The notes: generated by a model from the letters alone, not told the origin. Counted from the stretch's first letter, positions 1,569 to 20,694 are shown. The stretch is 20,694 nt of DNA from a virus (IMGVR_UViG_3300042549_005055:1-20694), one strand, 5' to 3'. Made by a program: numbers and translations.

Positions 1569-3164
1569 TTATCTGATCAACCATGATATATCTTCGGTCC
1601 CTCCGCGCCCGTCATCCATTTGATATGGATTTTGAGCAAATGAGTTCGCTGAATATGCTCCCGGTGCCATTTGATTAACTACTCCAAAGTTTCCTAAAGT
1701 AGCTCTTGTTAATTCGATTCCTTGTTGTCTATTTCTTAAAGCAGTATCTCGTAAAAATAATGCTATTGCAAATGCCATCACTAAATCGTCATTATAACCT
1801 GATTGTGATTGAGCTTTACCGTTTTTCCAAACAAATACTCTCAATTCATCCATTAACCTTTTAGATTGAATTATAACTGATTTTTCATGTATGTAAGATA
1901 CTAATTTTGATACACATAATGGTCTAGTTTTCATGGAAGTTGTAAACCCAGGTACCATACCTTGACCATTTTCCATTCTAGCCATTTGAGACTCACTAGC
2001 CCCTAATGTAGTATCTGCTTTTGATGAGTAATATAAATTTCTATATCCTCTTTCTATTAATTGTTCAATAACACTCCAACCAATATTAGCATTTTCTACT
2101 ACTAATAAAGCATCATTATATTCAGTTGATATTGAAAATAAAATATTTGCAAAATCTTTAGTTGGTATTTGTGCTTTATATTCAGCTACTTGTTTAGCAG
2201 CTTCTACATCTAAAATATGAAAAGTAGAGTAGTCAGTTCCGTCACCTCTAGCAACGTCGGCTACTACCATATATGATTTAGTGTAATCTGGTGTTTCCCA
2301 TATCCATAAAGATCCGTCTACTCCTCTTCTTTCCATTGGATCTGAAGTAAATGAGTCTTCATAAAAATTAAGCATGTCAGGTTCAATAACAGTATCCCCT
2401 GATGTACTAAAATCACAATCACATTCTTGAGCAGCGTGTCTTATACCTAATATTTCATCTTGAGCATCTCTCCATACTTGGTCTCGTTCAGGGTGAACAG
2501 TCCATGGTAAAGATAGTGGGACAAATTTATTTTCTCTAGATTGCGCTTTAGTAAATGACTTATGGAACCAGTTACCTGTACCATAAGGTGTAGATAGGGC
2601 TAAACATTGACCCCCAGTAGCTAAGGTTTGTTGAGCAGAAGCAAAAATCTCATCAATACCTTCAATAAAAGCTGCCTCATCAATAATAAGGAATGAAACA
2701 GCTTCTGATCGACCTGCATCCGCTGTTGCTCCTACTGCTTTAATTTGTGATCCGTTAGCTAAACGTAGTGATAATTTGTTATGTTCCGCCGTTTTAATCT
2801 GCATCCATTTTGGAAGCGCGTCATATGCGAACCTAACCTTGGTAACCATGTTTTTCGCTGTTTCTTGTTTAGTAGCGATACATAGAACATTTTTATCTTT
2901 CTGAAATAACATTAACCATAAAGAATAAGCTGAGGCTAATGTTGAAATACCTAACTGTCTAGATTTATTAATAATCGTGTATTCATTCTTTTGAAGTTGT
3001 ATTAATACTTTTTCTTGGAACGGATAAAGATTAAACTGGATCCTACCCTTTTGAGGGTGTTGGATCCAGTAATATTTTTTCATCCAGTAAACTGGATCTT
3101 GAGCACATCTAAGCCACTCTTGTTTGATAATCTCCTTTAACGGGAGTTGAGTATTTTCAGACAT
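1569..3164 (-). CDS. Terminase large subunit, T4 gp17-like
   Basis: This is the DNA-packaging motor: an N-terminal ATPase that pumps DNA through the portal and a C-terminal RNase H-like nuclease that cuts the concatemer. At 531 residues it is shorter than T4 gp17 (610) but has all key motifs. Walker A is SRQLGIST at residues 68-75 (gp17 type SRQLGKTT, with Ile in place of the last Lys). Walker B is FLIIDEA at 158-164, and the coupling motif LALSTP is at 188-193. Nuclease acidic residues are Asp303 (VADVARGDGTD), Glu357 (LVVENAN) and Asp459/Asp460 (GYNDDLVMA). The conventional lysine is the Walker A residue that is not obvious; as in other large terminases, the basic residue Arg69 may serve. 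The gene starts at an ATG preceded by AAGTT without a Shine-Dalgarno site, 20 bases after the upstream gene. Confidence 0.96.
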   Translation of the reverse strand: MSENTQLPLKEIIKQEWLRCAQDPVYWMKKYYWIQHPQKGRIQFNLYPFQEKVLIQLQKNEYTIINKSRQLGISTLASAYSLWLMLFQKDKNVLCIATKQETAKNMVTKVRFAYDALPKWMQIKTAEHNKLSLRLANGSQIKAVGATADAGRSEAVSFLIIDEAAFIEGIDEIFASAQQTLATGGQCLALSTPYGTGNWFHKSFTKAQSRENKFVPLSLPWTVHPERDQVWRDAQDEILGIRHAAQECDCDFSTSGDTVIEPDMLNFYEDSFTSDPMERRGVDGSLWIWETPDYTKSYMVVADVARGDGTDYSTFHILDVEAAKQVAEYKAQIPTKDFANILFSISTEYNDALLVVENANIGWSVIEQLIERGYRNLYYSSKADTTLGASESQMARMENGQGMVPGFTTSMKTRPLCVSKLVSYIHEKSVIIQSKRLMDELRVFVWKNGKAQSQSGYNDDLVMAFAIALFLRDTALRNRQQGIELTRATLGNFGVVNQMAPGAYSANSFAQNPYQMDDGRGGTEDISWLIR

Positions 3165-3184: not shown

Positions 3185-4273
3185 TTATAGGTCTTCTCCA
3201 CCCATTAAGTCAGCAGCAGACATTTGTCTTGGAGTTGTTTTTTTCTCTAATGCTTTTTTCTCAGCTGTTAAATCTTTTAATTGAGCTACAATACCTGCTT
3301 CTTCTGGAGTACCTTTAGCTGCTTGATATGCTTTAGCTAATGATTTCATTTCTTGAGATACTTGAGCTAATTTTTCTACTGCGGTACCTAATCTTTTGTT
3401 ACCTTTAGCAGCTTTTAAAGCTTGTTTTTCCATATCTATTTCTTCATCATCCATACCTGCAAATACATCAGCAGGAGCTAAATCTTTTAATTTAGTTGAA
3501 GTAGATTTTGGTTTTGGGTTTGTAATTTTTAATTTTGGAGAAGCATCTGCTTTATCTGGATTAGCTGGTCTACCTGTTCTAACAGCTGAAGGTGATGAAC
3601 CTGCTTGTACAAATGCTGCTAAATCTTTTTCTAATACGTCTCTTGATTTTGGATTGTTGAATGTAGCCATATCTTTACCAGTTGATTTAGCTAATTCTTT
3701 ATAATCAATTTCACCTGTTTTTTCTAAAGTATCTAAGGTGTTATATAATGTAGTACCTGGTTTGTATTTTTCTTTTGCTGCTGCAATAGCGGCTTTAGCT
3801 TCTGGTGAATCGTCTGCTACTTTATAGAAAGAGGCCATTTCTTCTAATGTACCTTCATCTAATGCGTCTTCTTCAGCTACACCGTCAGATCCAACTTCAT
3901 CAGCTCTAGTCATTTTAACTTCACTTATAGTGTCAGGGAAAATAGTGTTAAAATCTGGTTCAGAAATAGTAGTAGTTAAACTATCATCACCATATAATAC
4001 TTCAGTATCAGTTCCAAATTGAGATGCTATTTGTTGAATAGCTTTTACTGCTCCTGCTCCTTCACCATCTAAAGTAGCCATTCCAGCTTTATTAACTCTA
4101 GCACCAATAGTATCACGATTCCCTCCTTGGATTTGGAAGACATAACCTCCAGGTCCTTTTAATACTTTCCAAGATGAAAGATATGATAGGTCTTCGTTTA
4201 TAGTATTTTCTTCAACTGATACACTCTCAGCTAGTAATTGGTTTCTAAATTTTAATAAATCAAATGAATTCAT
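3185..4273 (-). CDS. Unknown leader-bearing protein with coiled-coil C-terminus
   Basis: I do not recognise the family. The 362 residues fall into parts: an N-terminal leader (MNSFDLLKFRNQLLAE, then Ser) of the type shared by many proteins here; a small, probably globular segment around residues 30-110 rich in Gly and Ile; an acidic patch near 120-145; a helical segment at about 145-225; a Pro/Lys/Ser-rich linker near 225-265; and a Lys/Glu/Ala-rich helix from about 275 to 345 that looks like a coiled coil. LAE followed by Ser at 14-17, and INE followed by Asp at 25-28, fit the (I/L)-x-E cleavage rule of T4-type prohead proteases. Position just ahead of terminase and portal fits a head component, packaged or scaffold-like, but this is inference. 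Confidence 0.75.
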   Translation of the reverse strand: MNSFDLLKFRNQLLAESVSVEENTINEDLSYLSSWKVLKGPGGYVFQIQGGNRDTIGARVNKAGMATLDGEGAGAVKAIQQIASQFGTDTEVLYGDDSLTTTISEPDFNTIFPDTISEVKMTRADEVGSDGVAEEDALDEGTLEEMASFYKVADDSPEAKAAIAAAKEKYKPGTTLYNTLDTLEKTGEIDYKELAKSTGKDMATFNNPKSRDVLEKDLAAFVQAGSSPSAVRTGRPANPDKADASPKLKITNPKPKSTSTKLKDLAPADVFAGMDDEEIDMEKQALKAAKGNKRLGTAVEKLAQVSQEMKSLAKAYQAAKGTPEEAGIVAQLKDLTAEKKALEKKTTPRQMSAADLMGGEDL

Positions 4274-5147: not shown

Positions 5148-5387
5148 TTATTTAATTTGGTTAAAATATTTTAAAAAGTCGGTAATAACTATTTGACTTT
5201 TTGGCTCTGACGCAGTAAATACTTCTTCAATTAATTGTTTAGTCGGTTTTTTAGATTCAGTTAATAGATTTTTAATTGGAGACAAAGCAGCTTCTGCTAA
5301 TACTAATTCGTCTGGTGTACCGTAATCCTCAATATCATTAAGGTATAACGTTAAAACTTCTTGTAATTTATTTTGAGAAATATTCAT
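5148..5387 (-). CDS. Small unknown helical protein, 79 aa
   Basis: No recognisable family. It is predicted by eye to be mostly helical. The N-terminus (MNISQNKLQE, then Val) is weakly like the leaders found elsewhere in this window, with LQE as a possible cut site, but it is less basic and I do not count it among the clear cases. It overlaps the end of the upstream DUF6884-like gene by 20 bases and is followed 4 bases later by the 80-aa gene, so all three are very likely co-transcribed and translationally linked. Confidence 0.6.
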   Translation of the reverse strand: MNISQNKLQEVLTLYLNDIEDYGTPDELVLAEAALSPIKNLLTESKKPTKQLIEEVFTASEPKSQIVITDFLKYFNQIK

Positions 5388-6608: not shown

Positions 6609-7784
6609 CTAATTAATTTTTATTTTTGTTCCTGGTAAATCTTCATTTATGCTTGATCTTGAACTATGAACCCACAATATTGGTTTTCTTACTTGTGTTT
6701 TAGGAGCACTACATTCACCATCAGTTAAATAAATTAAATTATTAAACTCATTTCTATGTTCAAATAGATAATCAAATACTGGATCAAAACTAGTACCACC
6801 TCTACCTTTAACTGATATATCTTCTAATTTACCATTATATTCATATATTCTTTGAATAATAGAGTCACATTCTATTACAGTTACTTCAGTACCTGTCTTA
6901 TGCATGTGGTAGATTTCATTGAAAAATTCTAATACTTCAGCATCTGAAACTGAACCTGATGTATCAATAGCGACTAATGTACGTTTATTTTGTTTTATTT
7001 TTAAAGCAGGATTACCATAAAAACGTTTATTTGGTTTACGTCTTGTTTTTTTAGTAAATACTTTAGGTGATACAGATGCAAATCTTCTTAAGTAAGACTT
7101 CCAATCTAATACTGGCTCTTTAATTTCAAATAAACCATTAATGTAGCTTTCTAATTCAGATGGAACTAAACCTCTACCTTTTTTCTGCATTTCAGAGGCA
7201 ATCTCTTTTAATTGATGGTCAACTTGTTTTTGAATTAATTTACGTTCAGCCTCACTCATACCCTCCATTGCTTCCCATAAATCATGCCAATCCATTTCTA
7301 TACCATTAACAAATTGAGCTATATCTCCATCAGGATTATCATCCATTTCTTTCTGAATGGCATCATAATAGTATTTAGTACCTTGTTTAGGTAGTAATTT
7401 AAGATCTTTAAACATACCCTGATCATATTCTAAACCATCCCAACTATCACCTTTATATTCAGATTCAATAAATTGGTTGATTTCTAAGTCAGCAGCAATG
7501 TTTGATAACTTTTTATTATCAAAACGTTCAAAATTTTCTAAATGGAAGAATACAATGTGAAGTAACTCATGTTTTAATACTGCTAATCTAGTTTTCTCAT
7601 CTAAGCCTAACCAAAATTCAGGATTAATACAAAGTTTAATATTAATTTTATCAGGAGTGACACACGCAGTTTGAATGTCAGTTCTTAACTCCTTATTTAG
7701 AGCTATTAAAAATAAACCATAAAATGGTTCTTTTAACATAAGCAATTTGGATTGCTTTGCTACTTCTTGATACACATCTGTCAT
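6609..7784 (-). CDS. Metallopeptidase-like / VWA-domain protein (DUF2201 type)
   Basis: A 391-residue two-domain protein. The N-terminal part has a zincin motif HELLH (72-76) in the context LKHELLHIVFFH, followed by NIAADLEIN (95-103), the arrangement seen in DUF2201 putative metallopeptidases. The C-terminal part is a von Willebrand factor A-like domain with a complete MIDAS metal site: DTSGS (274-278), Thr331 in GRGGTSF, and Asp355 in LTDGE. In bacteria such VWA proteins work with MoxR-type AAA ATPases as remodelling chaperones for enzyme complexes. A MoxR ATPase is encoded two genes upstream (8924-10108), with one unknown gene between. The leader before ATG is AAAAAAGGTT, with no clear Shine-Dalgarno site. 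No packaging leader. Confidence 0.88.
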   Translation of the reverse strand: MTDVYQEVAKQSKLLMLKEPFYGLFLIALNKELRTDIQTACVTPDKINIKLCINPEFWLGLDEKTRLAVLKHELLHIVFFHLENFERFDNKKLSNIAADLEINQFIESEYKGDSWDGLEYDQGMFKDLKLLPKQGTKYYYDAIQKEMDDNPDGDIAQFVNGIEMDWHDLWEAMEGMSEAERKLIQKQVDHQLKEIASEMQKKGRGLVPSELESYINGLFEIKEPVLDWKSYLRRFASVSPKVFTKKTRRKPNKRFYGNPALKIKQNKRTLVAIDTSGSVSDAEVLEFFNEIYHMHKTGTEVTVIECDSIIQRIYEYNGKLEDISVKGRGGTSFDPVFDYLFEHRNEFNNLIYLTDGECSAPKTQVRKPILWVHSSRSSINEDLPGTKIKIN

Positions 7785-8923: not shown

Positions 8924-10108
8924 TTATTTCATTATATATTGAACTAAATCTTTATTCATCATCATGGTTTTGAATTTACTTGGATTGTTATTGTAAATTG
9001 ATCTAACCATGTTGTAGCAAATATCATTTGCAAATATTTTTTCATTTACAATTTTAGAAATTCTATCTACTACTGTTTTTTCTACTGGATTTTCTTTTGC
9101 AAATAAATCTAAGTAGTTAACAATTCTAGTTGATAAAGTTGATGCTAAATCAGCTCTGTAACTATCATCTTTACCTACAATTGATTTCAATGTATTTAAA
9201 ACATATTTTTCATCTTGTTCTATTACATGTTGTGGTGAAATCATTTTATCTAGTTTATTATTAATAAACATAGTAAACATAGAACTAAATTCTGGTCCAA
9301 CTGAACCTTCACCTACCATCTGAATTAATGGTAATGAATCATCAAAACTCTTAATTGAAGAAATTGAATTAAAGAACATTGAGACACTTCTACTGTTAAC
9401 ATCTTTAGTTACTAGTTCAGGATGTAGTAATAAAAAGTTAATACATCTACCATCAATTTGACTTTCTTCAGCCCATTTAGCCCAACATTCTGTATCAAAT
9501 TTTAATTGTACAGTAATAAATCGTGTTTTCTGAGCGTTATCAATACTTGAAACTAAATAATCTCCATTATCAGGATTGGCAGTTAAAATAATATGCCAAT
9601 CTTTAGGTAAAGACCAACTAATATATTGTTGTCTATCAATTAGCTCCATTACAGCTTGTATGAACCTCATATCAGCTCTATTCCAGTCATCTAATAATAA
9701 GATACCACCTTTTTCTTTACCACTAATCCATTCAGGCGGACAGTAACCCATTCTATTTAAACCAGTGGTGTAATATCCTTGTTTAAATTTTTCATCTAAT
9801 ACATTTTCATCAACCCAAATTTTCTCACTTTCTTCATTTCTTTGGATTTCAAACTGACGAATTGGAAAACCTACTAAATCACCAATTTCTTCAATTTGTG
9901 ATAAATTCAATTTAACAAAATTAAAATCTAATTCTTTAGCTAACTGAACAATAGCTGATGTTTTACCAATACCTGATTCACCAATTACTTCAATTGACAC
10001 AGGTGTTTTATTTTGTTCCTGTAAGAATCTGTTGTTTTCAATAATGTGATTTAAGAATTCTTTTAATTCTTTAGCATTTAATGCTACTAGATTTGTTTTT
10101 TTAGACAT
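8924..10108 (-). CDS. MoxR-type AAA+ ATPase
   Basis: A 394-residue AAA+ ATPase. Walker A is GESGIGKTS (43-51), Walker B is ILLLDDWNRA (136-145), sensor 1 is Asn178 in ILTANPD, and a candidate arginine finger is Arg197 in NAQKTRF. An inserted helix-hairpin region before Walker B, with LNLSQIEEIGDLVGFP near 67-82, matches the MoxR/AAA_5 arrangement. The open frame extends 23 codons upstream to an ATG at 10177, but that stretch crosses a terminator hairpin and reads as non-protein sequence. The start at 10108 has the AAAAGTT leader seen elsewhere, so I chose it. It opens a new transcription unit after the hairpin at 10152-10172. It probably partners with the VWA protein at 6609-7784. Confidence 0.9.
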   Translation of the reverse strand: MSKKTNLVALNAKELKEFLNHIIENNRFLQEQNKTPVSIEVIGESGIGKTSAIVQLAKELDFNFVKLNLSQIEEIGDLVGFPIRQFEIQRNEESEKIWVDENVLDEKFKQGYYTTGLNRMGYCPPEWISGKEKGGILLLDDWNRADMRFIQAVMELIDRQQYISWSLPKDWHIILTANPDNGDYLVSSIDNAQKTRFITVQLKFDTECWAKWAEESQIDGRCINFLLLHPELVTKDVNSRSVSMFFNSISSIKSFDDSLPLIQMVGEGSVGPEFSSMFTMFINNKLDKMISPQHVIEQDEKYVLNTLKSIVGKDDSYRADLASTLSTRIVNYLDLFAKENPVEKTVVDRISKIVNEKIFANDICYNMVRSIYNNNPSKFKTMMMNKDLVQYIMK

Positions 10109-10196: not shown

Positions 10197-11495
10197 TTAT
10201 TTCAATAAATCTTCTGCAACATAAATTCCATGTGCACCACTTACTGTTATACCTCTAGCAGATAATGCATCACCTACAAAGTGAACATTTGGATATCTAG
10301 TTAATGCTAAGTTAGTATAATCAACAAGTGGCTCAGGAGATAGATATTTTACTTCAGGTATGTACATACCCCAATCGTCTTTTAATGTTGGGAATACTTT
10401 TTTCATATCATCAATAAAATCATCAATGTATCTAAAGTAACCTTCAAATGCTTCTCTTACTTCATCCATTACATAATCATTAATTTGAGTAGCTTCTACA
10501 AATTTACCTTCTGAAGTATATGATGGTACTCTAGATGGAGAATAATATAATCCTTTATCATCAACCTGTAATGTTTTAACTAAATTTCTTGACCATTCAA
10601 ATGGATTTTCAATACCATTTAACTCCATAATAATACCGAAGTTAGTCATATCATTTCTATACTTCTCATCTTTTTTAGCATGACCATTGTAAGTATAGTT
10701 TCCGTATGTTTCTTCTACTGCGACATAAGCAGCATTATTGTTAGTACAGAATGAACGTAATGATACTCCTTTATCTTCAAATTTTCTATATAACTTAAAG
10801 TCATATGAAATGTCAATTAGTTTTTGGAAGTGTTCTTGTGGTGCTTCAAATCTAACTCCAATTTGAACTGATTTAGGTTCAGTTGGTAAGTCATATTTGT
10901 CTGCTAATTTTTTACCAAAGTCAATACCTGATTTACCTACACCAAAGATAAGTTCATCATAAATACATAAAGTATTTAAATCATCAAAACGTAATAATTG
11001 TTTATTAAAATCAATATCTTTTACTTTAGTTTCCCATACAAATTTAACACCCTTATCAACTAAATATTCATACCAATTTTTACCTATTTCATGTAAATAA
11101 TCAGTTCCAACATGCCATACTGGGAATAATCTTAAACCAAAATGAGGTTTAATAAAATCAGGTTCTGCTTCAGGATTTGAACATTGTACTTCTTCAGGTT
11201 TAGGATGGAAACGTTTAAAGTTATTAATAACCTGATCCATCAATTCCATTGCTTTATCTTCACCACAGTATTTAGATAATTGACCTCCAATGGCTGTATG
11301 ATAAGTTAATTTACCATCAGACCAACCACCAGCACCTAACATACCAGTCATTACTTCACTTGGTAATCTTTTATATGGGTCTTTACCCATGTCAATAATT
11401 GTAATTAAATGACCCGGATAGCCATTATCTACTAATTTAGTAGCAGCATTAATACCTGCTACTCCTGCACCTACTATTACTATTTTTTTCTCCAT
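10197..11495 (-). CDS. FAD-dependent dehydrogenase, COG2509-like
   Basis: A 432-residue flavoprotein. The N-terminus is a Rossmann strand with GAGVAG (9-14) for the ADP part of FAD, and an acidic residue ends the second strand (IIDMGKD). GAGGWSDGKLT (54-64) matches the glycine-rich block of COG2509 uncharacterised FAD dehydrogenases. In the middle, VSLRSFCTNN followed by NGHAKKDEKYRNDMTNFGI resembles that family's 'LRTFCMCPGG...NGMS...' block, including the cysteine. The C-terminus NVHFVGDALSARGITVSGAHG (about 404-424) is the second FAD-binding motif. Substrate and electron acceptor are unknown. It is a cytoplasmic enzyme by sequence. Phage copies would count as auxiliary metabolic genes. It stands as a single-gene unit between the hairpins at 11526-11564 and 10152-10172. 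Confidence 0.88.
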   Translation of the reverse strand: MEKKIVIVGAGVAGINAATKLVDNGYPGHLITIIDMGKDPYKRLPSEVMTGMLGAGGWSDGKLTYHTAIGGQLSKYCGEDKAMELMDQVINNFKRFHPKPEEVQCSNPEAEPDFIKPHFGLRLFPVWHVGTDYLHEIGKNWYEYLVDKGVKFVWETKVKDIDFNKQLLRFDDLNTLCIYDELIFGVGKSGIDFGKKLADKYDLPTEPKSVQIGVRFEAPQEHFQKLIDISYDFKLYRKFEDKGVSLRSFCTNNNAAYVAVEETYGNYTYNGHAKKDEKYRNDMTNFGIIMELNGIENPFEWSRNLVKTLQVDDKGLYYSPSRVPSYTSEGKFVEATQINDYVMDEVREAFEGYFRYIDDFIDDMKKVFPTLKDDWGMYIPEVKYLSPEPLVDYTNLALTRYPNVHFVGDALSARGITVSGAHGIYVAEDLLK

Positions 11496-11609: not shown

Positions 11610-13163
11610 TTATGCTATAATATCGTTGTAAGATAATTCAATTTTATTACCTGTTACAGCTCCGTCTTTATACAATAAGTTTTTAGGTTGTACTGTAGCT
11701 CTTAAACCACCAGTAGCACTTCTTGTTGAATCATGTCTGATGTTAAGTATAGGTTCTAAATCAAATTCTTCTACGTCTTGTAAATTTTCTATAATTTTAG
11801 AAACAGTAATAATTAAATTGTCTCCTTGCTGATTAAAATCACTTTCAGTATAAGTTTTGTAAATTACAACTGCTTTATCTGAACCAAATATAATAGATTC
11901 TTCTTCTTTATTAGGTAAATCTGTTACTAATACACCTGATACTTTAGTATCTGTAGTACCATTATACATGGTATTTATACCTGGTTTTTCATTACCTAAT
12001 TTATCAATAAAAGGTTTAAAAACTAATTCAGGACCAAAATCTCCATTTTTAATTTTAGCTACTAATTTAGTCATTAATTCTTTATATCTAGTATCAGCGC
12101 TTTCCCAGAAACCAGCGTTATCTTTTTTAATTGAGATTGGATAATTACCCTCAGCTCCTGTTATAACAATATCAGCTTTTTTACCTCCTGCTACATCATA
12201 TCCAACTCCAGTTACTCCAGTTGCATTTGGCACTGTATAGGATTTGTTTGGAGCTTTAAATATAATATTTTTAGCACCTAATGCTAAATATTTTTTAATC
12301 TCATTTTCTAATACATCTTCATTTTCGGTACCTGCTGAAGCTCTACCTTGAGCTCCTGATGGTTTAATAACAAAAAATGAATTTTTATATTTTATTGCTC
12401 CTATTGATGAACCTTTAGCGCTTGGATCATAATCAAAATCTTTAATTGCTTGAATTTTTTTAATGTATTCAATGCGTTCTGAACCTGGAACTAATAATTT
12501 ATATCTGTTACTTGATATTTTAGAGAAGTTTTCATCTGTTAAACCTAGTTTAGATTTTAAAATTTCAATACCTTCTTCAGCTTCAGTTACTTCATTTAGA
12601 GAAGTTTTTTTTGACAAACCTTCTTTAACAATTTTAAATCTTAAAGGAGATTTTGATTTAACTTCTTCAGTTTCTTTTAATTCTTCTTCAGGAGCCGGTT
12701 CTTCTGCTGGTACTTCTTCTGCTGGTACTTCTTCTCCTCCTTGTGTATTAGCTTCATTATCCATTGGCTCACCTGGGCCTTCAGATCCTGGAGGCATACC
12801 TAATTCTAATAAAGAAGCGATAGCATTAATAGCGAATTGCTCTTCACTTAAGTTAAGTAAGTAATATTTTTTACCCGATATTTTAGCAGTGTAAGATTGT
12901 GGTCCATAGATTAAATAAAATTCTTGACCATTATGAAGTAAAATTCTAAATGTAGTAGGTCTAGGTGCTATTACATAAACACCTGTAATATAATCTCTAT
13001 AATGGTCTGTCATTAAATCTACTAAAGCAGCATCTAATGAAGGATATTTTTGAAGAATATATTCAAGAGGATTATCTTCAAAAGATATAGTTTCACGTTG
13101 TTGTTGTGAAACAAAATCTTCAATACCCTCTTTAATTAAATTTTTTAATATATTTAAAGACAT
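11610..13163 (-). CDS. Leader-bearing protein with a PD-(D/E)XK-like nuclease signature, 517 aa
   Basis: The N-terminal leader MSLNILKNLIKE (then Gly) is of the type shared across this window. Residues 30-125 form a small unknown domain. Residues 128-170 are an acidic Pro/Glu linker with a tandem VPAEE repeat, followed by IVKE-Gly and LNE-Val near 178-191, further possible cut sites. The C-terminal domain (about 200-517) contains ENEDVLENEIKKYL (281-292), then KADIVI with Asp331, then PISIKKDNAGFWESADTRY (342-360). The spacing Glu286/288, Asp331, x, Lys346 matches the E...D...(x)xK pattern of PD-(D/E)XK nucleases, with Ser344 in place of the usual Glu/Asp. Function is therefore suggestive only. 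If packaged and injected, a nuclease could attack host DNA or block host restriction. Last gene of the leader-bearing block. Confidence 0.72.
   Translation of the reverse strand: MSLNILKNLIKEGIEDFVSQQQRETISFEDNPLEYILQKYPSLDAALVDLMTDHYRDYITGVYVIAPRPTTFRILLHNGQEFYLIYGPQSYTAKISGKKYYLLNLSEEQFAINAIASLLELGMPPGSEGPGEPMDNEANTQGGEEVPAEEVPAEEPAPEEELKETEEVKSKSPLRFKIVKEGLSKKTSLNEVTEAEEGIEILKSKLGLTDENFSKISSNRYKLLVPGSERIEYIKKIQAIKDFDYDPSAKGSSIGAIKYKNSFFVIKPSGAQGRASAGTENEDVLENEIKKYLALGAKNIIFKAPNKSYTVPNATGVTGVGYDVAGGKKADIVITGAEGNYPISIKKDNAGFWESADTRYKELMTKLVAKIKNGDFGPELVFKPFIDKLGNEKPGINTMYNGTTDTKVSGVLVTDLPNKEEESIIFGSDKAVVIYKTYTESDFNQQGDNLIITVSKIIENLQDVEEFDLEPILNIRHDSTRSATGGLRATVQPKNLLYKDGAVTGNKIELSYNDIIA
12700..12729. 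repeat. Two tandem 15-bp units inside the 517-aa gene
   Basis: TCTTCTGCTGGTACT occurs twice in direct succession, followed by a 6-base start of a third unit. It encodes the acidic VPAEE repeats of the linker, and is the kind of spot where length can vary by slippage. Confidence 0.85.
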
Positions 13164-13182
13164 ATTATTTTATTTTTATTTC

Positions 13183-13659
13183 TTAGCTTATATCTTGTTC
13201 TGATGAAAATGCCTCAATACCTTTTGCTTTTAAAGCATCTACAATATCAAGTACTTCTTTATCATCTGACCAAGCTCTTGTTGGAAGCTCTAATCCTGTA
13301 AGATTTTTTATAAATTCATTTGAAGCGTCAAATCCCGGTAATTTTTTACCGTCTATTTTTACTCCATAAAATCTATTACCAGGAACAGTATAAGTAATTT
13401 CAATAGTTTTTGTATCAGAATCTCCTTCTTTCATTGGCTTTTCTCCTCTTAAAATAGCGGCTACATTTTTAGGATTAGCTTTATCTAAAATTTTATTTCC
13501 TTTATCAGCGTCACCTACATATTTTTCATCCTCTTCAGCTTCAAACCCACGTTTAGCTATTTGCATTAATTTATCATTAATATTTTTATGTATTGGGTGT
13601 GTATCAACCATTTCTTTAATGATCTCAGAAACAATAGCTTTTAATTTTATTTTACTCAT
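13183..13659 (-). CDS. Unknown leader-bearing protein, 158 aa
   Basis: The leader MSKIKLKAIVSEIIKE (then Met) is nearly the same at the start as in the next gene upstream (MSKIQLKQLIKKELLKE). After it comes a charged helical part (20-75), then a small beta-rich part with KTIEITYTVPGNRFYGVKIDGKKLPGFDA (about 84-112), and a final helix. I do not recognise the family. A TATAAATA sequence lies 48 bases ahead of the start (13707-13714, minus strand), in the correct direction for a T4-type late promoter, so it may begin a late transcript. The role is unknown; the leader suggests packaging in the head. Confidence 0.7.
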   Translation of the reverse strand: MSKIKLKAIVSEIIKEMVDTHPIHKNINDKLMQIAKRGFEAEEDEKYVGDADKGNKILDKANPKNVAAILRGEKPMKEGDSDTKTIEITYTVPGNRFYGVKIDGKKLPGFDASNEFIKNLTGLELPTRAWSDDKEVLDIVDALKAKGIEAFSSEQDIS

Positions 13660-13705
13660 AGGTTTTATTTTTAATTTATTTTTTTATAGATACTGCAATT
13701 AGTTA

Positions 13706-13990
13706 TTATTTATATCCTAATTTAGTTAGTACTTTTTCAACTTCATTTCTAATAACAGTTTTAGAAACTTTACCAGGTTGAAATCCTAAAGATTTAAACC
13801 AAACTTCAAATGATCCTGGAAATTCTTGAATAGTATTAATGGATTTAGCTCTATTTTGTAATGAAGTAGAAGCTTGTTGAGCTCTATTTAGATTTTTAAC
13901 ATCTGAAGAAGTACTAGCAGTTGGAGTAGGTTTCTCAAACTCTTTTAATAATTCTTTTTTAATAAGTTGTTTTAATTGTATTTTGCTCAT
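13706..13990 (-). CDS. Unknown leader-bearing protein, 94 aa
   Basis: The leader MSKIQLKQLIKKELLKE is followed by a Thr/Ser/Pro-rich linker (18-30), a helical part with many Gln/Asn, and a compact C-terminal segment INTIQEFPGSFEVWFKSLGF (51-70) ending in a basic helix. No family recognised. Its ATG overlaps the stop of the cupin gene upstream (ATGA), showing translational coupling. Small size, leader and linker fit a packaged head protein similar in build to T4 internal proteins, but this is inference. Confidence 0.68.
   Translation of the reverse strand: MSKIQLKQLIKKELLKEFEKPTPTASTSSDVKNLNRAQQASTSLQNRAKSINTIQEFPGSFEVWFKSLGFQPGKVSKTVIRNEVEKVLTKLGYK
13707..13714 (-). promoter_or_regulatory. 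Possible T4-type late promoter (TATAAATA)
   Basis: TATAAATA on the gene strand, at the very end of the upstream gene (it encodes part of its last Tyr-Lys and stop), with a 47-base AT-rich leader to the next ATG at 13659. The match is exact, but 8-mers like this arise by chance in sequence this AT-rich. Confidence 0.35.
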
Positions 13991-14250
13991 TTTTCTTCTA
14001 TTTTAATTAGTAAGTCTGTTTTACCTTTTAATACTCTATGGTATTTTTGTTTAGGTATAAATATAACATCTTTTTTTCGAAGCTCCAAAGGTAATTCATT
14101 ATCTAATTGGAATTGCCAACCTTCCCCTTCTAAAACAGTGACATGGCGATCTTTCTTATCTCTATGCCACACTAGTTCTTTATTAGGGGTATTAACCTTA
14201 AACTCACGAACACGTGAATTATTATTTAAAACTTCTTTATAAGGTTTCAT
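13987..14250 (-). CDS. Small cupin-fold protein, 87 aa
   Basis: A single cupin barrel. Motif 1 runs through VWHRDKKDRHVTVLEGEGWQFQ (27-48), with His29, Asp31 or Asp34, His36 and Glu41 as candidate metal ligands. Motif 2 is VIFIPKQKYHRVLKG (62-76), with His71. It has no leader and is single-domain, and similar small cupins with a 'WHRD..DR' start occur in T4-like phages. Metal and substrate are unknown. It overlaps both neighbours by 1 to 4 bases (TAATG with the gene upstream, ATGA with the gene downstream), so it is translated as part of this operon. Confidence 0.78.
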   Translation of the reverse strand: MKPYKEVLNNNSRVREFKVNTPNKELVWHRDKKDRHVTVLEGEGWQFQLDNELPLELRKKDVIFIPKQKYHRVLKGKTDLLIKIEEK

Positions 14251-14969
14251 TATAGGTCTGTTGAGTATGGTTCAACTGTTTGTTTAAATCCTATTACTCC
14301 TGGGATTGTTTTTATATTATTTGCTACAGCTTCAAGTGTAGTTTTACCATCAAATTTATTTTGTTTGATATAAGGATAAGGATCTACTTTAATTTCAAGG
14401 GAACTTCTAAAATAACGAGAAGTAGCATCTTGTGGTATCTCTACATTACGTACAACAGTGATACCAGGTAAAGCTCTAACATCTGATAATACATCTTGAA
14501 CGTCACGTTTTTGGTTATCAATAATAATAGTTCCTTCTATATGGAATATTTTTTCTGAATCTAATTCCAGGATTAAGTCTTTTAATTTTATCATGTCTTC
14601 TTTAGTTTTACCCCAAGTTTTGCCTTTACCTTTACGTTTGCATCCAGCTGGAGTAGGTCTACAGGCAGGGTATTTAGAACGTTTTTCACCTTCTTTTCTA
14701 CCACAAGCCTTATATCCACCTTTACCATCAGGAGCGTTACAATCTACCCAACCACCTTCTTTACCTTTAGGACCTGAACGTTTAAACCATTTATGAAGTG
14801 ATTCATCTTCAGATAAAAGTTCATTAAGAGCTTCTTTTATCCCTTTCCATATATCTCCTCTTCTGCATCTAACTACAGCACCAGATTTATAAGCTGATGG
14901 TTTATCAAACTTACGATCAGCTATACGTAAACATCTATCACGTTTTTCTTTTTCGTTTAAATTATCCAT
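14250..14969 (-). CDS. Modular phage protein: Cys-rich DUF5872-like part plus leader-like segment and ferredoxin-like domain
   Basis: Three parts can be seen in 239 residues. First, a basic segment with RCLRIADRKFDKPSAYKSGA (12-31), seen in marine phage head-associated proteins. Second, a Cys/Gly-rich basic domain (55-112) with HKWFKRSGPKGKEGGWVDC, CGRKEGEKRSKYPACRPTPAGC and six cysteines over the two first parts, resembling DUF5872. Third, from Met126, MIKLKDLILE followed by a domain with two repeats of a beta-alpha-beta pattern (IFHIEGTIII...VRALPGITVVRNVEI and SLEIKV...NIKTIPGVIGFKQ), which looks like a ferredoxin-like fold. The internal MIKLKDLILE resembles the leaders on neighbouring proteins, so this gene looks like a fusion of two packaged proteins. 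Start at ATG overlapping the upstream stop (TAATG). Confidence 0.72.
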   Translation of the reverse strand: MDNLNEKEKRDRCLRIADRKFDKPSAYKSGAVVRCRRGDIWKGIKEALNELLSEDESLHKWFKRSGPKGKEGGWVDCNAPDGKGGYKACGRKEGEKRSKYPACRPTPAGCKRKGKGKTWGKTKEDMIKLKDLILELDSEKIFHIEGTIIIDNQKRDVQDVLSDVRALPGITVVRNVEIPQDATSRYFRSSLEIKVDPYPYIKQNKFDGKTTLEAVANNIKTIPGVIGFKQTVEPYSTDL

Positions 14970-15814
14970 TACCAGTATCCGCTAAAGTTTGAACCTCCAC
15001 CTAATGATTTCCAATAACGACCTATATTACAAGACCAGTATCCTGGTGTTGTTCTGTCTTTTTTTCTAGCACAGTTTTGACGAGATGCGAAAGCTCTTCT
15101 TGCTTTAGGGTCTCTAATTTTAACTGCTAAGTTTTGACCACCACCGGCAGCACCAAATTGTACTTTTTTTACTTTACCTGTTTTTGGGTTTTTAACATAA
15201 ACATAGAATTTTTTAGAACCACCACGTTTAGGTTTTCCAAGAGGTACTTCTTTACCTTGATATTCAGCCTCATTTAAAATTTCTTCTTCAACAAAAGGTA
15301 CATCTAAAGAAACTGTTTTGCCTTCAAATTCTCCATACTCACCAATACTAGTATTTTCTATTAACCATCTATCATGTGAGTTTAAATAAAGTAATCCTTT
15401 ACCATGCAATTCTCTTGCTTCTCTAAATAACTCTAATTGAGCATCTGAACCATATCTGAATATGTTTTCATGTAATGGTAATTGTTTATTTAAGTGGTAT
15501 CTTAAATTAGATGAAGTTTGAATACCTTCATGTAATAATACATTCTCATTTAAGCCTGTATCTATATCAGCATTCTTTTCTTCTTCTTCAGCGTCATCAA
15601 ATGGTCTTAGATCAGAAAAATGGTACGAATCAGTTGTACCAGTTTGATCAAATTTGATAGCATAAAAAGGATGTTTAGCTAAAACTACAGTACCAATACC
15701 ACCGCCTTCAGATGAATCTGTTTCTACTCTATCTCCTTCGACATATTGTATATCAGCTTCAAATATAGCTTGGATTGCTTCTTGAATTAATTCTTTGATT
15801 TGGTTAATCTTCAT
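14969..15814 (-). CDS. Modular leader-bearing phage protein, 281 aa
   Basis: The leader [12 protein letters not shown] (then Ala) is followed by three modules. Residues 22-73 form a small KOW-like barrel ([21 protein letters not shown]...SDLRPF). Residues 98-175 carry [20 protein letters not shown] and [16 protein letters not shown]...[18 protein letters not shown], a domain I associate with head proteins of marine T4-like phages. Residues 195-281 are a basic domain, [20 protein letters not shown] ... [11 protein letters not shown] ... TPGYWSC, with Cys248 and Cys262. Between modules lie LHE-Gly (94-97) and LNE-Ala (180-183), both fitting the (I/L)-x-E cut rule, so the product may be processed like a polyprotein. 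The start overlaps the upstream gene by 11 bases, and AGGAG 9 bases ahead is the only good Shine-Dalgarno match I see. Confidence 0.78.
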
Positions 15815-17453
15815 TGTTGGAGTCTCCTATTATAGTGTTATAATCTTCCATTGATAGCATTTCTTTACTTTTATTTAATGCTATAGCATTTTCAGCTACA
15901 TCATGTAAATCCATATCAGTTTGAGCATCTTCTTTAGCATACTCTAACATACGGATAAATAAAGGAATATCTAGTGTTACTGTATCTACTACATCACCTT
16001 CTTCATTTTCATTCATCATATAATCAATAGCAGCTGTTTTTTCTTCACCATCTAAGTACCCATAAGCACTTTGTAAGTAATCATATGCTTTAATAATTTT
16101 AGCTTGCCACCAGTGAGGAAAATCAACTTCTCCCATGTTATCATAGTTATTAAGTTGTTTGTATAACATAGCAGCCATTTTAGCTATTCTGTAAACATCA
16201 CTTTTTAACATTGATGGTTCATCATCTTGATGACCTACATCTAAATCTTCGTTTTTAAAGTCTACTCCTCTACCTTTTAAGATATCAGCTCTAGTTACTT
16301 TACCATCACCTGTTAAGTCAGGGAATTTTTTCTCAGCTAATTTTTTAGCTTTAGCAGTTGCAATAGCGTAAAGAGCAGGATCATCTTTTTTGAATCCTGA
16401 TTTCTTTAAACCCTTAACTATATCTTCTTTTTTATTAGTTTCAGCTTTAGTTAATTTCTTTTCATCTAATACCTCTTGAATTAATCTATGAACTTGATCT
16501 TTGATTGATTCTTTAACTGGTTTTTTAGTGTTGTCAGATATAAATTTTAATGCTGTTGCCATAAGGTTTTTCTTTTGGGCGTCTGTAATATCAGACACAG
16601 TTATTTTGGTATCTACCATATCAGTTTTAGGAGCGAAATCTTTAGGTATAAGACGCATAAATTTTTTCGCTAATTCAGGACTATCAAACGTTTTAACAAA
16701 ATTAATCTTCTCAACCGCACCCTGTGCATTAGAAGTAGTTGTTGGTTGATCATCCGCTTCTTTTTGAGCTAAATTGTATTGAAGTTTAGCATTACCCATT
16801 ATAGTTTTTAATACTTTAGTTAGGTAATCTTTAGTTTCAAATGGATTATTCTTTTGAGGGAAAATAACTTTATCTCCACTTACAACATAATCTTTATCTT
16901 TAGTCATAACACCACTATACTTTTTCAAGTTATCAGGTGTTTTCATTGGATAGTAATTAGCTCCTCTTGAACCAAAGAAACCATTACTTTTTACATTTCT
17001 TAAGTCAGTGGAAGATAATGTAGATATAAATTCAATAAATGAACCTTCACCTTCAGTAGCCATCCATTCTTCAAATTTACCTTGTAAATCAGATTCTAAT
17101 GCTTTCCAAGCTTCAGGTACTCTATTTCTAATGTCAGTTGCTTTAGCAAATCTTTCTTCATCATTTAAACCATCCCAAGTTCTCCAAGCAGTGTTTGCTT
17201 TTTGAGCTGGAATACTAGGTCCAAATATTTTGGTTATGATTTTAGGATCTCTTAAGTTATTAGCGTAAATGCCATAATTCTTAATATCACCTAACGCAGA
17301 TAGAGCAGACTGTAAGTCTGCTGGCTCTAATACTAAATCATAATTAACTTTCTCTAGTCCGGCTGGTTTTTCATCGCCTTCTCCTGATTCAAGTTCCTCT
17401 TTTATAAGTTTATGAAGTAGAGATTTAAAAGTATTTATCTGATTACTCTTCAT
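15804..17453 (-). CDS. Large modular leader-bearing protein with EF-hand loop, 549 aa
   Basis: Leader [19 protein letters not shown], then a helical domain (35-150), a mixed domain (155-310), and at 315-332 a second leader-like helix ([16 protein letters not shown]). After it comes a basic segment with [21 protein letters not shown] and an EF-hand loop [12 protein letters not shown] (379-390), with Asp379, Thr381, Asp383, Lys385 as an odd position 7, and Asp390. The C-terminal part (405-525) contains [19 protein letters not shown] (445-463) and [20 protein letters not shown] (496-515), segments found as separate short proteins in marine T4-like phages. It therefore appears to be several head-associated modules joined together. 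The EF-hand could bind calcium. It overlaps both neighbours by 11 bases, pointing to coupled translation. Confidence 0.75.
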
Positions 17454-18015
17454 CTTCTTTTTTTTCTTTTTTAGCTTTTTTAGGAGATTCTTTTTCTAAC
17501 GCACCTTTTAATTTTTCAACTGCATTCTCAATTTTTTCTAATTGAGCAAATAAAGTATCATTAGTTTCAGTTAACTCACCTCTTCTTTGTGGATCGTGAA
17601 CGGCTCTAGTAGAATTATCTTCAATAGTCTTTTTTAAACCTTCAATTTTAGCTTCTAATTCAGCTACTTTAGACTTACCAACTTCAATATTTTCTTTTAA
17701 TTTAGCATCTCTAGCTTTTAAAGCTTTTTTACCAGCAGCTGCTGCTTGACCAGTAGTAGGATAAGCACCAATATATTCATCACCTATAAGAGATTTAAGT
17801 GTAACAGCATTAACAATACCTCCCTCAGTTGTATCTTTAGTTGGTTTACGAACCAAGAAAATACTACCTTGTTCTTTAGTTACTTTATCTTCAAATTCTG
17901 CTGCTCCTTCTTCTAAGACTGGAGTTTCTTGAATTTCTTCTTTTTCAGTATTTAATTCAGTTAAATAATCTGTTATACTTTCTCTAATGATGTTTTTTAA
18001 GTTTGGTTTAGCCAT
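17443..18015 (-). CDS. Leader-bearing coiled-coil protein, 190 aa
   Basis: The leader [12 protein letters not shown] (then Ser) precedes an acidic linker (20-45), a small beta part ([27 protein letters not shown], 50-76), and a long Lys/Glu/Ala helix from about 96 to 175 that should form a coiled coil. The last 15 residues are almost all Lys, Glu and Asp. This build resembles prohead core (scaffold) proteins of T4-like phages, such as the small core proteins, but the sequence alone does not prove it. A palindromic TATAAATATTTATA lies 15 bases ahead of the start, with TATAAATA in the correct direction, so it could be the first gene of a late transcript. Confidence 0.72.
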
Positions 18016-18029
18016 GGTTTAAGTTTTTA

Positions 18030-18043
18030 TATAAATATTTATA
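18030..18043. promoter_or_regulatory. TATAAATATTTATA palindrome, possible late promoter
   Basis: A perfect 14-base palindrome at the junction of two genes; it overlaps the stop of the zinc-finger gene and gives the T4 late-promoter core TATAAATA on both strands. On the minus strand it would start a transcript with a leader of only about 12 bases ahead of the ATG at 18015. Confidence 0.45.
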
Positions 18044-18608
18044 TTTCTGTTTCTCTTAATCGTTTTATGTTATCTTTTACAGTTTTTATTAATTCTGGTG
18101 ATATGTCTCCACCTGTCCAACTTTCAATTGCCCCATCTTCAGTAACATATGTACTAGTTGGATTATTAATAAAATCTTCAAACATTTGTTCAGCATCATT
18201 TGCTGAGGTGTTTTTATTAGCGTTTAATAGCTTTTTTTCATACTCCTCATATTTACCTTCAATTCTAAGTTTAGTTTCCATTTCTACTACACAATCAGAA
18301 CACATCTTATGAATACTAAACATTTTTTTATTTAATGAATGATTCTTCATTGGTTGTTTACAATTTGGGCAAACTAATGGAAACTCAAACATTGATTTTA
18401 AAGTGTCATGTTTGGTGACGGTTTGTTTGATACCATTTTGAATAGTCCACTTTTTACCGTCTTCTTCCCATACATCACCCTCAACATGTTTTACTTCATT
18501 TTTACTATAACCGGCTTGAATTCTAGTACTATTAGCAGTATTACCTGTAACAATATTACGCATACGTTGTACGTCACGTTCTGAGAATTGTTTGTTTAAT
18601 TGTGTCAT
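18039..18608 (-). CDS. Zinc-ribbon protein of T4-like phage type, 189 aa
   Basis: A four-cysteine zinc site is clear: CPNC at residues 80-83 and CSDC at 103-106, in the context FPLVCPNCKQPMKNHSLNKKMFSIHKMCSDCVVEMETKLRIEGKYEEYE. Before it lies GDVWEEDGKKWTIQNGIKQTVTKHD (44-68), and after it a helical tail rich in Asn and Glu. I recognise this combination as a conserved protein of unknown role in marine T4-like phages. The N-terminus lacks the basic (I/L)-x-E leader. It starts directly after the stop of the HAD gene, with no gap, so the two are co-translated. Function is unknown; nucleic-acid or protein binding is possible. Confidence 0.76.
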   Translation of the reverse strand: MTQLNKQFSERDVQRMRNIVTGNTANSTRIQAGYSKNEVKHVEGDVWEEDGKKWTIQNGIKQTVTKHDTLKSMFEFPLVCPNCKQPMKNHSLNKKMFSIHKMCSDCVVEMETKLRIEGKYEEYEKKLLNANKNTSANDAEQMFEDFINNPTSTYVTEDGAIESWTGGDISPELIKTVKDNIKRLRETEI

Positions 18609-19148
18609 TTATAACCCTAATTGTTTTAATTCATTTATTACTTGGTCAGTTGTTCTATATACAATACCAATACCTCCTTTAGATTTCCAATTTAAAATAG
18701 TATCCTCTCTATCATCAATTAAAATAGCATTTGATTCTGCAAATTCAGGTTTGTTTTTAGCTTGTCTAAAGATAACTTTAGTACCTGGAATATGATCCTT
18801 AATCCACAATGATTTACCCATTTTACTTGATTGATCCCATGAAGGTGATGTTAGTAAAGTTGGGTTATATGGTTTAATATACTCCCATAATTGTTTACCA
18901 CCAGGCATCCAAGGTATTCCTCTCCAAAATCTTACTCCAATTTGTTTATCAATAAGGTCCCAAAACATTTTATCTACTTGTTTCTCACCATACTTTTTAG
19001 CTATTTCAGCTCTATAGGCATCAGGTGATAAACCAGCAAAATGTTCGAATCTAGCTTCAAAATCAGCTATAACCCCATCCATATCACAATAAATTTTGTA
19101 ATTTAATTTTGGTTTTTCCTCTTCAAATAATTTATTTAATGATATCAT
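18609..19148 (-). CDS. HAD-superfamily phosphatase, 5'-nucleotidase-like, with leader
   Basis: A 179-residue HAD hydrolase. Motif I is DMDGVIADF (22-30), with Asp22 as nucleophile and Asp24 as acid/base. Motif II is LLTSPS (98-103). Lys131 or Lys133 follows in FRQAKNKPEF, and motif IV is LIDDRED (143-149). The layout matches 5'(3')-deoxyribonucleotidase-like members, including the short helical cap with FWDLIDKQIGVRFWRGIPWMPG (62-83). It would remove phosphate from a nucleotide or similar compound in the cell. Unusually, it begins with MISLNKLFE (then Glu), a short form of the leader shared by packaged-type proteins here. It abuts the genes on both sides without gaps. Confidence 0.85.
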   Translation of the reverse strand: MISLNKLFEEEKPKLNYKIYCDMDGVIADFEARFEHFAGLSPDAYRAEIAKKYGEKQVDKMFWDLIDKQIGVRFWRGIPWMPGGKQLWEYIKPYNPTLLTSPSWDQSSKMGKSLWIKDHIPGTKVIFRQAKNKPEFAESNAILIDDREDTILNWKSKGGIGIVYRTTDQVINELKQLGL

Positions 19149-20063
19149 TTATTCAAATATTTCAGGATTTTCACGTCCAAATTTTCTCATTATAACTCCA
19201 GCCATAGCATTAGCTTCATTTTCAGTATCAGATCCATCTTCTCCATTTAACTCATCTCCATTTAATTTTTGATGATGGTGAACTAATTCATGTGCTAATG
19301 TTCTTAAAATATCAGCCATGTTTCTATTATGTACTACTACAAGTATTTTTTCTTCTGAAGGTATATAACCTCCAAAACTGTGATTTTCTTGAGAGTATGT
19401 TGGTGAATTTATAACACCAATTTGTGGTTCATTTATTTCTAATTCATTACAAGCATATTTAACAAATTTCTTCATTAAAGGTGCTTTCTGCGGGGTAAAT
19501 GACTCATGTAATATAGGACCTGGTTTAAACTCATTTTGAGTATAAATTGATAAAAATTGTTTAGGATCAATACTAGCAGGTAAGAATTTTTTAATATCTT
19601 CTAAATCTTTATTTCTAATAGCTGTTCTTAAATCAGTAGCATTTAAACTTTCAAAATTTCCAGCATCTACTATTTTAACATTAGGGTAAGTATTAGGATC
19701 TTTTTCTATAGCTCTGTATCTACCTTCTTCACCCTTACCATATAATACAATAAAGTCTGTTGATTTATCTTTTATAATATCAAATACTTCACTTACAGGT
19801 GAAGCTTTACCTGATATTATTACTTGAACATTTGAAGGTAAAATATCTTCATATAGTCTCCAAACTTTCATTGAGTCCTCAGCTGTAAATTCATCTTTAG
19901 AACCTTGAGACATTATCACAATAACTTTATCAGCAATATTAGCTGCCTTAGCTACTACATTAAAATGACCAGCATGTGGTGGTTTGAATTTACCTGGATA
20001 TAAAGCTATTATAGGAGTAGTTGACTCTATTAATTCTTGTACTATTTCTCTACCTATATTCAT
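19149..20063 (-). CDS. Nucleotidyltransferase fused to zinc metallopeptidase, with leader
   Basis: Two enzymes in 304 residues. Residues 15-165 are a cytidylyltransferase/NMN-adenylyltransferase-type domain: PGKFKPPHAGH (23-33) gives the HxGH nucleotide-binding motif (His30, His33), and LNATDLRTAI (140-149) matches the 'ISATxxR' motif. Residues 185-304 are a small zincin domain: HELVH (258-262) in RTLAHELVHHHQ, and ENEANA (281-286) as the likely source of the third zinc ligand, Glu283. The start MNIGREIVQELIE (then Ser) is leader-like, and LHE-Ser (185-188) lies exactly between the two domains, so the halves could be separated by a prohead protease. Substrates are unknown. Its ATG overlaps the upstream stop (TAATG). 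Confidence 0.85.
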   Translation of the reverse strand: MNIGREIVQELIESTTPIIALYPGKFKPPHAGHFNVVAKAANIADKVIVIMSQGSKDEFTAEDSMKVWRLYEDILPSNVQVIISGKASPVSEVFDIIKDKSTDFIVLYGKGEEGRYRAIEKDPNTYPNVKIVDAGNFESLNATDLRTAIRNKDLEDIKKFLPASIDPKQFLSIYTQNEFKPGPILHESFTPQKAPLMKKFVKYACNELEINEPQIGVINSPTYSQENHSFGGYIPSEEKILVVVHNRNMADILRTLAHELVHHHQKLNGDELNGEDGSDTENEANAMAGVIMRKFGRENPEIFE

Positions 20064-20694
20064 TATATAAAATTTTGGATTTTTGATTTAGCTGAATCGA
20101 CTGAATCGAATTCAGGTAATTGTTTAACCATAACTTCTATTTCTTTATTCAAAGCTTCTTTTTCAGCCCTAGATTTAGCCATTTCTTCAGGTGTTTTTGG
20201 TTTACCTACTGCTGCTGAGTCTTGAGTATAAGGTTTAATTAGCTCAGGTGAAAAGCCTTTATTAGTATTTTCAGGATTATTATCTAGTAAGATAAAATTA
20301 TCCCCAAAAGCCTGTCTATAAATGTCAATATTCTTATTAACATCTCTCCATGTACGTAAAACAATACCTGGCATTAAACTTCTATCACGTTGAGCGTTAC
20401 GTTCAAGTGAAGTTAGAGGAGAGACATAAACCATTAACATTAATGTCTCATACCCTAAATCTTCTAATTGTTGTTTTTTCTTTAATACTGGACCTGAAGC
20501 TGCACCTGTTCCATCAATAACAATATCATTTTTGTCTTCAATGGATTGAGCTAATTTATCTTGAGTAGTTTTTCTAGCTTGTGCTTGTAATTTAGCTGCT
20601 TGAGATAATTGATCGGGTGTAAAATCTTTTTGTTTTAGACCAATACCACTTGCTTTTAAAAGTTCCTCATAAGTGTCATCAGAATTGATAACTT
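20063..20694 (-). CDS. P-loop kinase, zeta-toxin-like (5' end beyond the window)
   Basis: The frame is open to the right edge (about 209 residues seen), so the apparent ATG at 20440 is internal. Visible features are a strand IVIDGTGAASG with the Asp typical of the substrate-binding or Walker B region, then ETLMLMVYVSPLTSLERNAQRDRSLMPGIVLRTWRDVN, which matches the arginine-rich lid region of zeta-toxin/polynucleotide-kinase-like P-loop enzymes. The ATP-binding Walker A motif must lie upstream, outside the window. The C-terminal 60 residues are charged and helical. Together with the adjacent nucleotidyltransferase and HAD phosphatase it suggests nucleotide or RNA-end chemistry, though the target is unknown. 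The name zeta-toxin-like describes the fold only. Confidence 0.75.
   Translation of the reverse strand, partial: VINSDDTYEELLKASGIGLKQKDFTPDQLSQAAKLQAQARKTTQDKLAQSIEDKNDIVIDGTGAASGPVLKKKQQLEDLGYETLMLMVYVSPLTSLERNAQRDRSLMPGIVLRTWRDVNKNIDIYRQAFGDNFILLDNNPENTNKGFSPELIKPYTQDSAAVGKPKTPEEMAKSRAEKEALNKEIEVMVKQLPEFDSVDSAKSKIQNFI

Follow-up and report, generated by a model that had tools for sequence, protein, structure and literature searches.

The internal proteins that T4 injects are few and small, and the three that have been studied block restriction enzymes. IPI–IPIII and Alt carry an N-terminal propeptide of 10–19 residues cut after L/I-x-E, are otherwise unrelated proteins, and are accompanied by an S77 protease encoded in the head cluster, features shared with the system described here (PMC9026906, PMC12373910). 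Type IV restriction is blocked by T4 internal proteins of this kind (PMC12373910). Earlier work has already described the capsid-targeting sequence and exploited it to locate internal-protein genes in T-even phages (PMC9026906, PMC12373910), and one review proposed that the sequence allows T4-like phages to package a variety of proteins (PMC9026906). Among the head proteins of T4, the vertex protein gp24 is known to lose its first 10 residues to the prohead protease (PMC9958956), and loss of nine N-terminal residues of gp21 is thought to activate the protease (PMC9026906, PMC9958956). The phiKZ-like giant phages (SPN3US, phiKZ) also process many head proteins with a gp21 relative and eject some of them (PMC5694885), but their cuts fall at A/S-x-E, with another residue at −2, and their propeptides often exceed 100 residues.

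Here we analyse a virus record of 20,694 bases (the window), related to the T4-like Flavobacterium phage immuto, whose genome is complete at 160 kb. Nine of its genes begin with short leaders that are very probably capsid-targeting propeptides of the T4 type, belonging to an expanded system for loading and trimming enzymes. In contrast to the T4 internal proteins, the cargo includes enzymes, is encoded by about ten genes in a block adjoining the terminase, and contains fused proteins with internal leader-like sites; the leader sequences also differ from that of IPI. In length and pattern, the MIKLxDLLxE and MISLNKLFE leaders found here have their closest counterpart in the gp24 propeptide, MAKINELLRE, although gp24 is a protein of the shell and not cargo. 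As far as the searched literature shows, the extension to the immuto group, the enzyme block beside the terminase and the occurrence of fused cargo containing internal sites are new: no paper on them, nor any virion proteomics of immuto, was found in the literature searched, which covered few subscription journals or preprints.

Leader-bearing genes of the window

All window features given below lie on the minus strand, on which the gene order runs from a truncated P-loop kinase at the right end to a truncated portal protein at the left end. The portal gp20 homologue (2–1537), assigned through the portal family of relatives, is an open-ended reading frame cut by the window edge, and the large terminase (1569–3164) is 61% identical to that of immuto. 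A VWA-like protein and MoxR ATPase pair (6609–7784 and 8924–10108) adjoins a FAD-dependent protein (10197–11495), and close relatives keep these genes between the cargo block and the terminase. A 79-residue protein (5148–5387) with LQE-10 and an internal NLLTE/S at residue 44 (score 9.4; a slash marks the predicted cut) is possibly another small core protein.

The nine leader N-termini that had been proposed from the sequence are all in frame, with start codons at 13163, 13659, 13990, 15814, 17453, 18015, 19148, 20063 and 4273. They are short (9–19 residues), N-terminal and amphipathic, stand on unrelated proteins and are conserved in relatives. Leaders are given up to the predicted cut. The 517-residue protein at 11610–13163 begins with MSLNILKNLIKE (13128–13163; PWM 12.3), which is conserved in three relatives of 86–94% identity; diverged relatives carry MTKLSILRQLIKE and MNKLSILKRLIKE as leaders. 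This protein matched uncharacterised viral proteins only, and its earlier description as nuclease-like found no support: there was no PDB fold match at E ≤ 0.001, the mean model confidence was 65.8, and a nuclease identity was rejected.

The leader MSKIKLKAIVSEIIKE of 13183–13659 (13612–13659; PWM 8.7) recurs in 7/7 relatives. MSKIQLKQLIKKELLKE, at the start of 13706–13990 (13940–13990; PWM 6.7), is the least supported cargo leader because that protein had no relatives among the related loci compared. The leader of 14969–15814 (15779–15814; PWM 10.9), conserved in four relatives, is accompanied by a second site, IFE-19 (PWM 8.5), and that of 15804–17453 (17397–17453; PWM 5.9) keeps KLIKEEL in five. 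The start of 17443–18015 (17980–18015) has PWM 14.0, with a leader of the LKN(I/L)I(K/R)E/S type in 12/12 relatives. MNSFDLLKFRNQLLAE (4226–4273) opens 3185–4273, the gene adjoining the terminase, whose 14 relatives all follow the leader rule, for example with MNINNDFDLKKAKNFLLTE.

The recognised cargo comprises a DUF5872 protein and three enzymes. The HAD/NT5C-like phosphatase (18609–19148) begins with MISLNKLFE (19122–19148); it had no match in a PDB sequence search and was recognised through a relative that matches PF06941 (NT5C). A CTP_transf_like nucleotidyltransferase with a metallopeptidase-like part (19149–20063; PF01467 match) begins with MNIGREIVQELIE (20025–20063), conserved in three relatives. 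The Zeta_toxin/AAA_33-type P-loop kinase (20063–20692; PF06414 match) has its start codon outside the window; 25/26 of its relatives follow the leader rule, typically with MIKLxxLLKE.

Motif statistics and discrimination

The preliminary description also held that the terminase, MoxR and VWA proteins lack the leader. At the level of the bare (I/L)-x-E motif this was wrong, as each has it near the N-terminus (LKE-11, LKE-17 and LKE-19, respectively), and so does a 370-residue protein outside the cargo set (IFE-10). The bare motif occurs in 8/12 genes from position 11610 on and in 8/11 of the others, and on these counts it was rejected as a classifier within the window. What does discriminate is the amphipathic pattern together with conservation in relatives and the position of the gene.

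The rule is followed by nearly every member of four leader families (25/26 kinases, 12/12 for the 17443 family, 7/7 for 13183 and 14/14 for 3185). Mixed families show intermediate fractions (HAD 0.70, nucleotidyltransferase 0.70, 11610 family 0.57), and the rule is followed by 0/68 FAD proteins and 1/50 members of the 18039 family, both within the same gene run. The latter, a conserved leaderless neighbour that serves as an internal negative control (18039–18608), is a 189-residue protein with CxxC pairs that sits among tagged genes in relatives. For the 12 genes from 11610 on, eight motifs were seen against 3.5 expected when residues 2–30 were shuffled (p = 0.004). In 18 related contigs, an [IL]xE with its E at residues 8–13 is about 2–4 times commoner than one lying deeper in the proteins. 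In immuto, the motif marks 20/29 cargo or head-block genes and 30/177 elsewhere (p = 3e-8).

Motif discovery was carried out on 1,144 distinct N-termini from related contigs, with the window and one close contig left out. Unseeded expectation-maximisation from random starts repeatedly returned an amphipathic L-x-K-K-[LI]-[LI]-x-E (log-likelihood 579 versus 171 for shuffled N-termini). A scoring matrix was also trained on these N-termini, with the motif as its starting point, and gave scores of 6–14 to six or seven of the nine held-out window leaders. Score 7 was reached by 20% of genes, by 1.8% of N-termini after shuffling and by 3.4% of stretches from protein interiors. At this score, a 168-kb related contig (G028) has 11/33 block genes and 10/189 genes elsewhere (p = 2e-5). 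Single matches are unreliable because the matrix also gives 9.4 to the terminase N-terminus and 8.0 to MoxR. The T4 vertex protein gp24 (MAKINELLRE/S) scored 11.7, the highest among the T4 proteins tested, and IPI only −0.3. The unseeded motif and this cross-match to gp24 both place the gp21 cleavage motif, L/I-x-E, at the leader end.

Short amphipathic, lysine-rich starts are frequent in phage proteins and (I/L)-x-E is common, and a composition artefact of this kind would explain why the bare motif fails to separate the two groups in the window and why phage 11b, which lacks S77, follows the bare rule in 13/56 genes. In the same phage, however, a matrix score of 7 leaves just 2/56; chance is exceeded by the shuffles, the internal windows and the block tests alike, and the near-absence of the motif from the FAD and 18039 families in the same gene run likewise argues against composition. 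We regard this explanation as close to negligible. A second alternative is that the leader remains uncut and serves as a docking helix for a common partner (scaffold, portal or replication complex), with the E in the binding face. A helix is predicted at residues 3–23 of the 11610–13163 model, with low confidence there, and the sequence after the E is sometimes conserved too, such as SITDYLxELN in the 17443 family, as docking would allow. Yet the most informative motif positions are −2 and 0, as in gp21 specificity, and the same pattern begins those head proteins of T4 and the clade for which cleavage is known or expected, which makes docking quite improbable.

Prohead protease and head proteins in relatives

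A cleaved capsid-targeting leader calls for a gp21-like protease, which the preliminary description suggested looking for to the left of the window. The window itself ends inside the portal gene; the protease was found in relatives. Past the terminase, the gene order of immuto is portal, core proteins, prohead protease, scaffold and major capsid protein, so the window ends just short of the protease. Peptidase_S77 (PF03420) matches exceed the Pfam cut-off in immuto, in one further related locus (L113) and in 15/21 additional contigs, the remainder possibly being fragments. In relatives the protease lies just downstream of the portal with all candidate catalytic residues present, and H85, S140 and D168 (T4 numbering) are invariant in the alignment; the PF03420 match together with the conserved H, S and D identifies it as peptidase S77. 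The contig G029, near-syntenic to the window and with cargo proteins 74–93% identical to those of the window (compared via L235), contains cargo, terminase, portal, S77 (29909–30532) and capsid protein in one continuous run.

In G029 the protease and the major capsid protein both bear such leaders. Across the clade, the major capsid protein begins M..LNxLLE/S; in the protease, LLIE lies near residue 8 and LTE around residue 20, and the T4 gp21 site is LIE-9. Capsid-targeting leaders read by a gp21-like protease, as first proposed, are thus supported by S77 in relatives, by leaders on the capsid protein and protease, by the match to a site that is cut in T4, and by the absence of the leader from most homologues in unrelated phages. 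An initial idea, that the long T4 propeptide was gone from the clade's capsid protein and just a nine-residue leader was left, was dropped because a region resembling that propeptide (KWxKTGLLEG) follows the leader. In Microcystis phage Mel-JY01, a ribosomal protein S21 gene (L147:22183–22410) lies between the prohead protease and scaffold genes; it was rejected as tagged cargo, having no LxE leader.

Processing in the prohead need not entail delivery. The T4 core proteins gp22, gp67 and gp68 are also cut at L/I-x-E (PMC9026906), and some leader genes sit in the head cluster, as would be expected if the tagged proteins belonged to the core or scaffold and were retained in the head or degraded without ever reaching the host. 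Several of them are, however, recognisable enzymes (kinase, NT5C-type phosphatase, nucleotidyltransferase) that make unlikely scaffolds, and we consider this account of the tagged proteins doubtful.

Leader as an add-on tag and fused cargo

Among 27 standalone clade HAD homologues, the catalytic DxDG is preceded by about 20 residues in 23, with LxE in 20 of those 23, and four start at the domain without a leader. The HAD homologues of phiCbK, OLIVR1, Atu_ph07, XacN1, Cr30 and BUCT-ZZ01 begin directly at the domain; those of the Kyanoviridae HTVC008M and Melnitz-3 have an extension with no clear LxE. Also without leader are the Mendera cytidyltransferase and, for the 517-residue protein, its Vibrio and Mendera homologues, and PDB phosphopantetheine adenylyltransferases align to 19149–20063 from query residue 17–20 onward. 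Because most outside enzyme homologues start at the enzyme domain, the leader is an add-on tag on domains that most other phages encode untagged. Against the capsid-targeting reading stand the four leaderless clade HAD homologues, the two Kyanoviridae extensions and the nucleotidyltransferase of immuto, which lies inside a large protein that has no leader at its N-terminus.

In the proposed mechanism, an amphipathic helix of 9–22 residues would bind the prohead scaffold core and bring the attached protein inside. Peptidase_S77 of the gp21 family would then cut after (I/L)-x-E and so free the mature protein within the capsid; part or all of this cargo may then be delivered to the host along with the DNA. 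From these sequence comparisons we infer that the tagged proteins would be targeted, cleaved, packaged and injected, and that the cargo would function in the host. About ten different enzymes and other proteins of this virus bear the tag, and since it matches the known T4 head-loading signal, T4-like phages of this group probably carry an enzyme toolkit inside the particle. A leader that can be read from sequence would thereby flag an entire block of putatively injected enzymes in a widespread T4-like phage group, turn the question of which proteins a phage injects into a list checkable by proteomics, and point to pre-made enzymes at work before any phage gene expression. Natural leaders of this kind would also offer a broader range of tags with which to load proteins into capsids.

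Across all loci, 38 cargo families occur both as separate leader-bearing genes and within longer proteins. For 22/38 of these families, LxE stands at the internal junction in half or more of the instances, where 22% would be expected (p = 2e-6, a count in which fusion events are not fully independent). In the window, 14250–14969 contains an internal leader, MIKLKDLILE (residues 126–135; 14565–14594; PWM 13.5), and the part that follows it is a separate gene with the leader MISINKLLNE in a related locus (L146:15734–16075). Because leader-like sites are kept at internal junctions, fused genes would be split into separate proteins there; the pattern suggests cargo polyproteins cut inside the head, with internal translation starts also possible. 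More tentatively, and with somewhat less than even confidence, each domain of a fused protein may be preceded by a targeting and cleavage site, the prohead protease trimming and separating a packaged kinase, deoxynucleotidase and nucleotidyltransferase whose targets in the first minutes of infection would be nucleotides or NAD.

Several further arrangements were observed. The 14250–14969 protein appears to join two or three cargo modules (RDRCLRIADRK, DESLHKWFKRSG and the segment following MIKLKDLILE), which are separate leader-bearing genes in three other loci. At about residues 375–485, the 15804–17453 protein has a domain with an EF-hand/dockerin-like loop that is joined to several leaders in relatives, such as MINLENILNE (L165:7495–8097). 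A second, longer leader type, for example MKKQILSEQFxRMQxLAGIITE/S, occurs on several proteins of immuto and its relatives (L002:1676–2140, L003:25061–25456 and G029:15228–15743).
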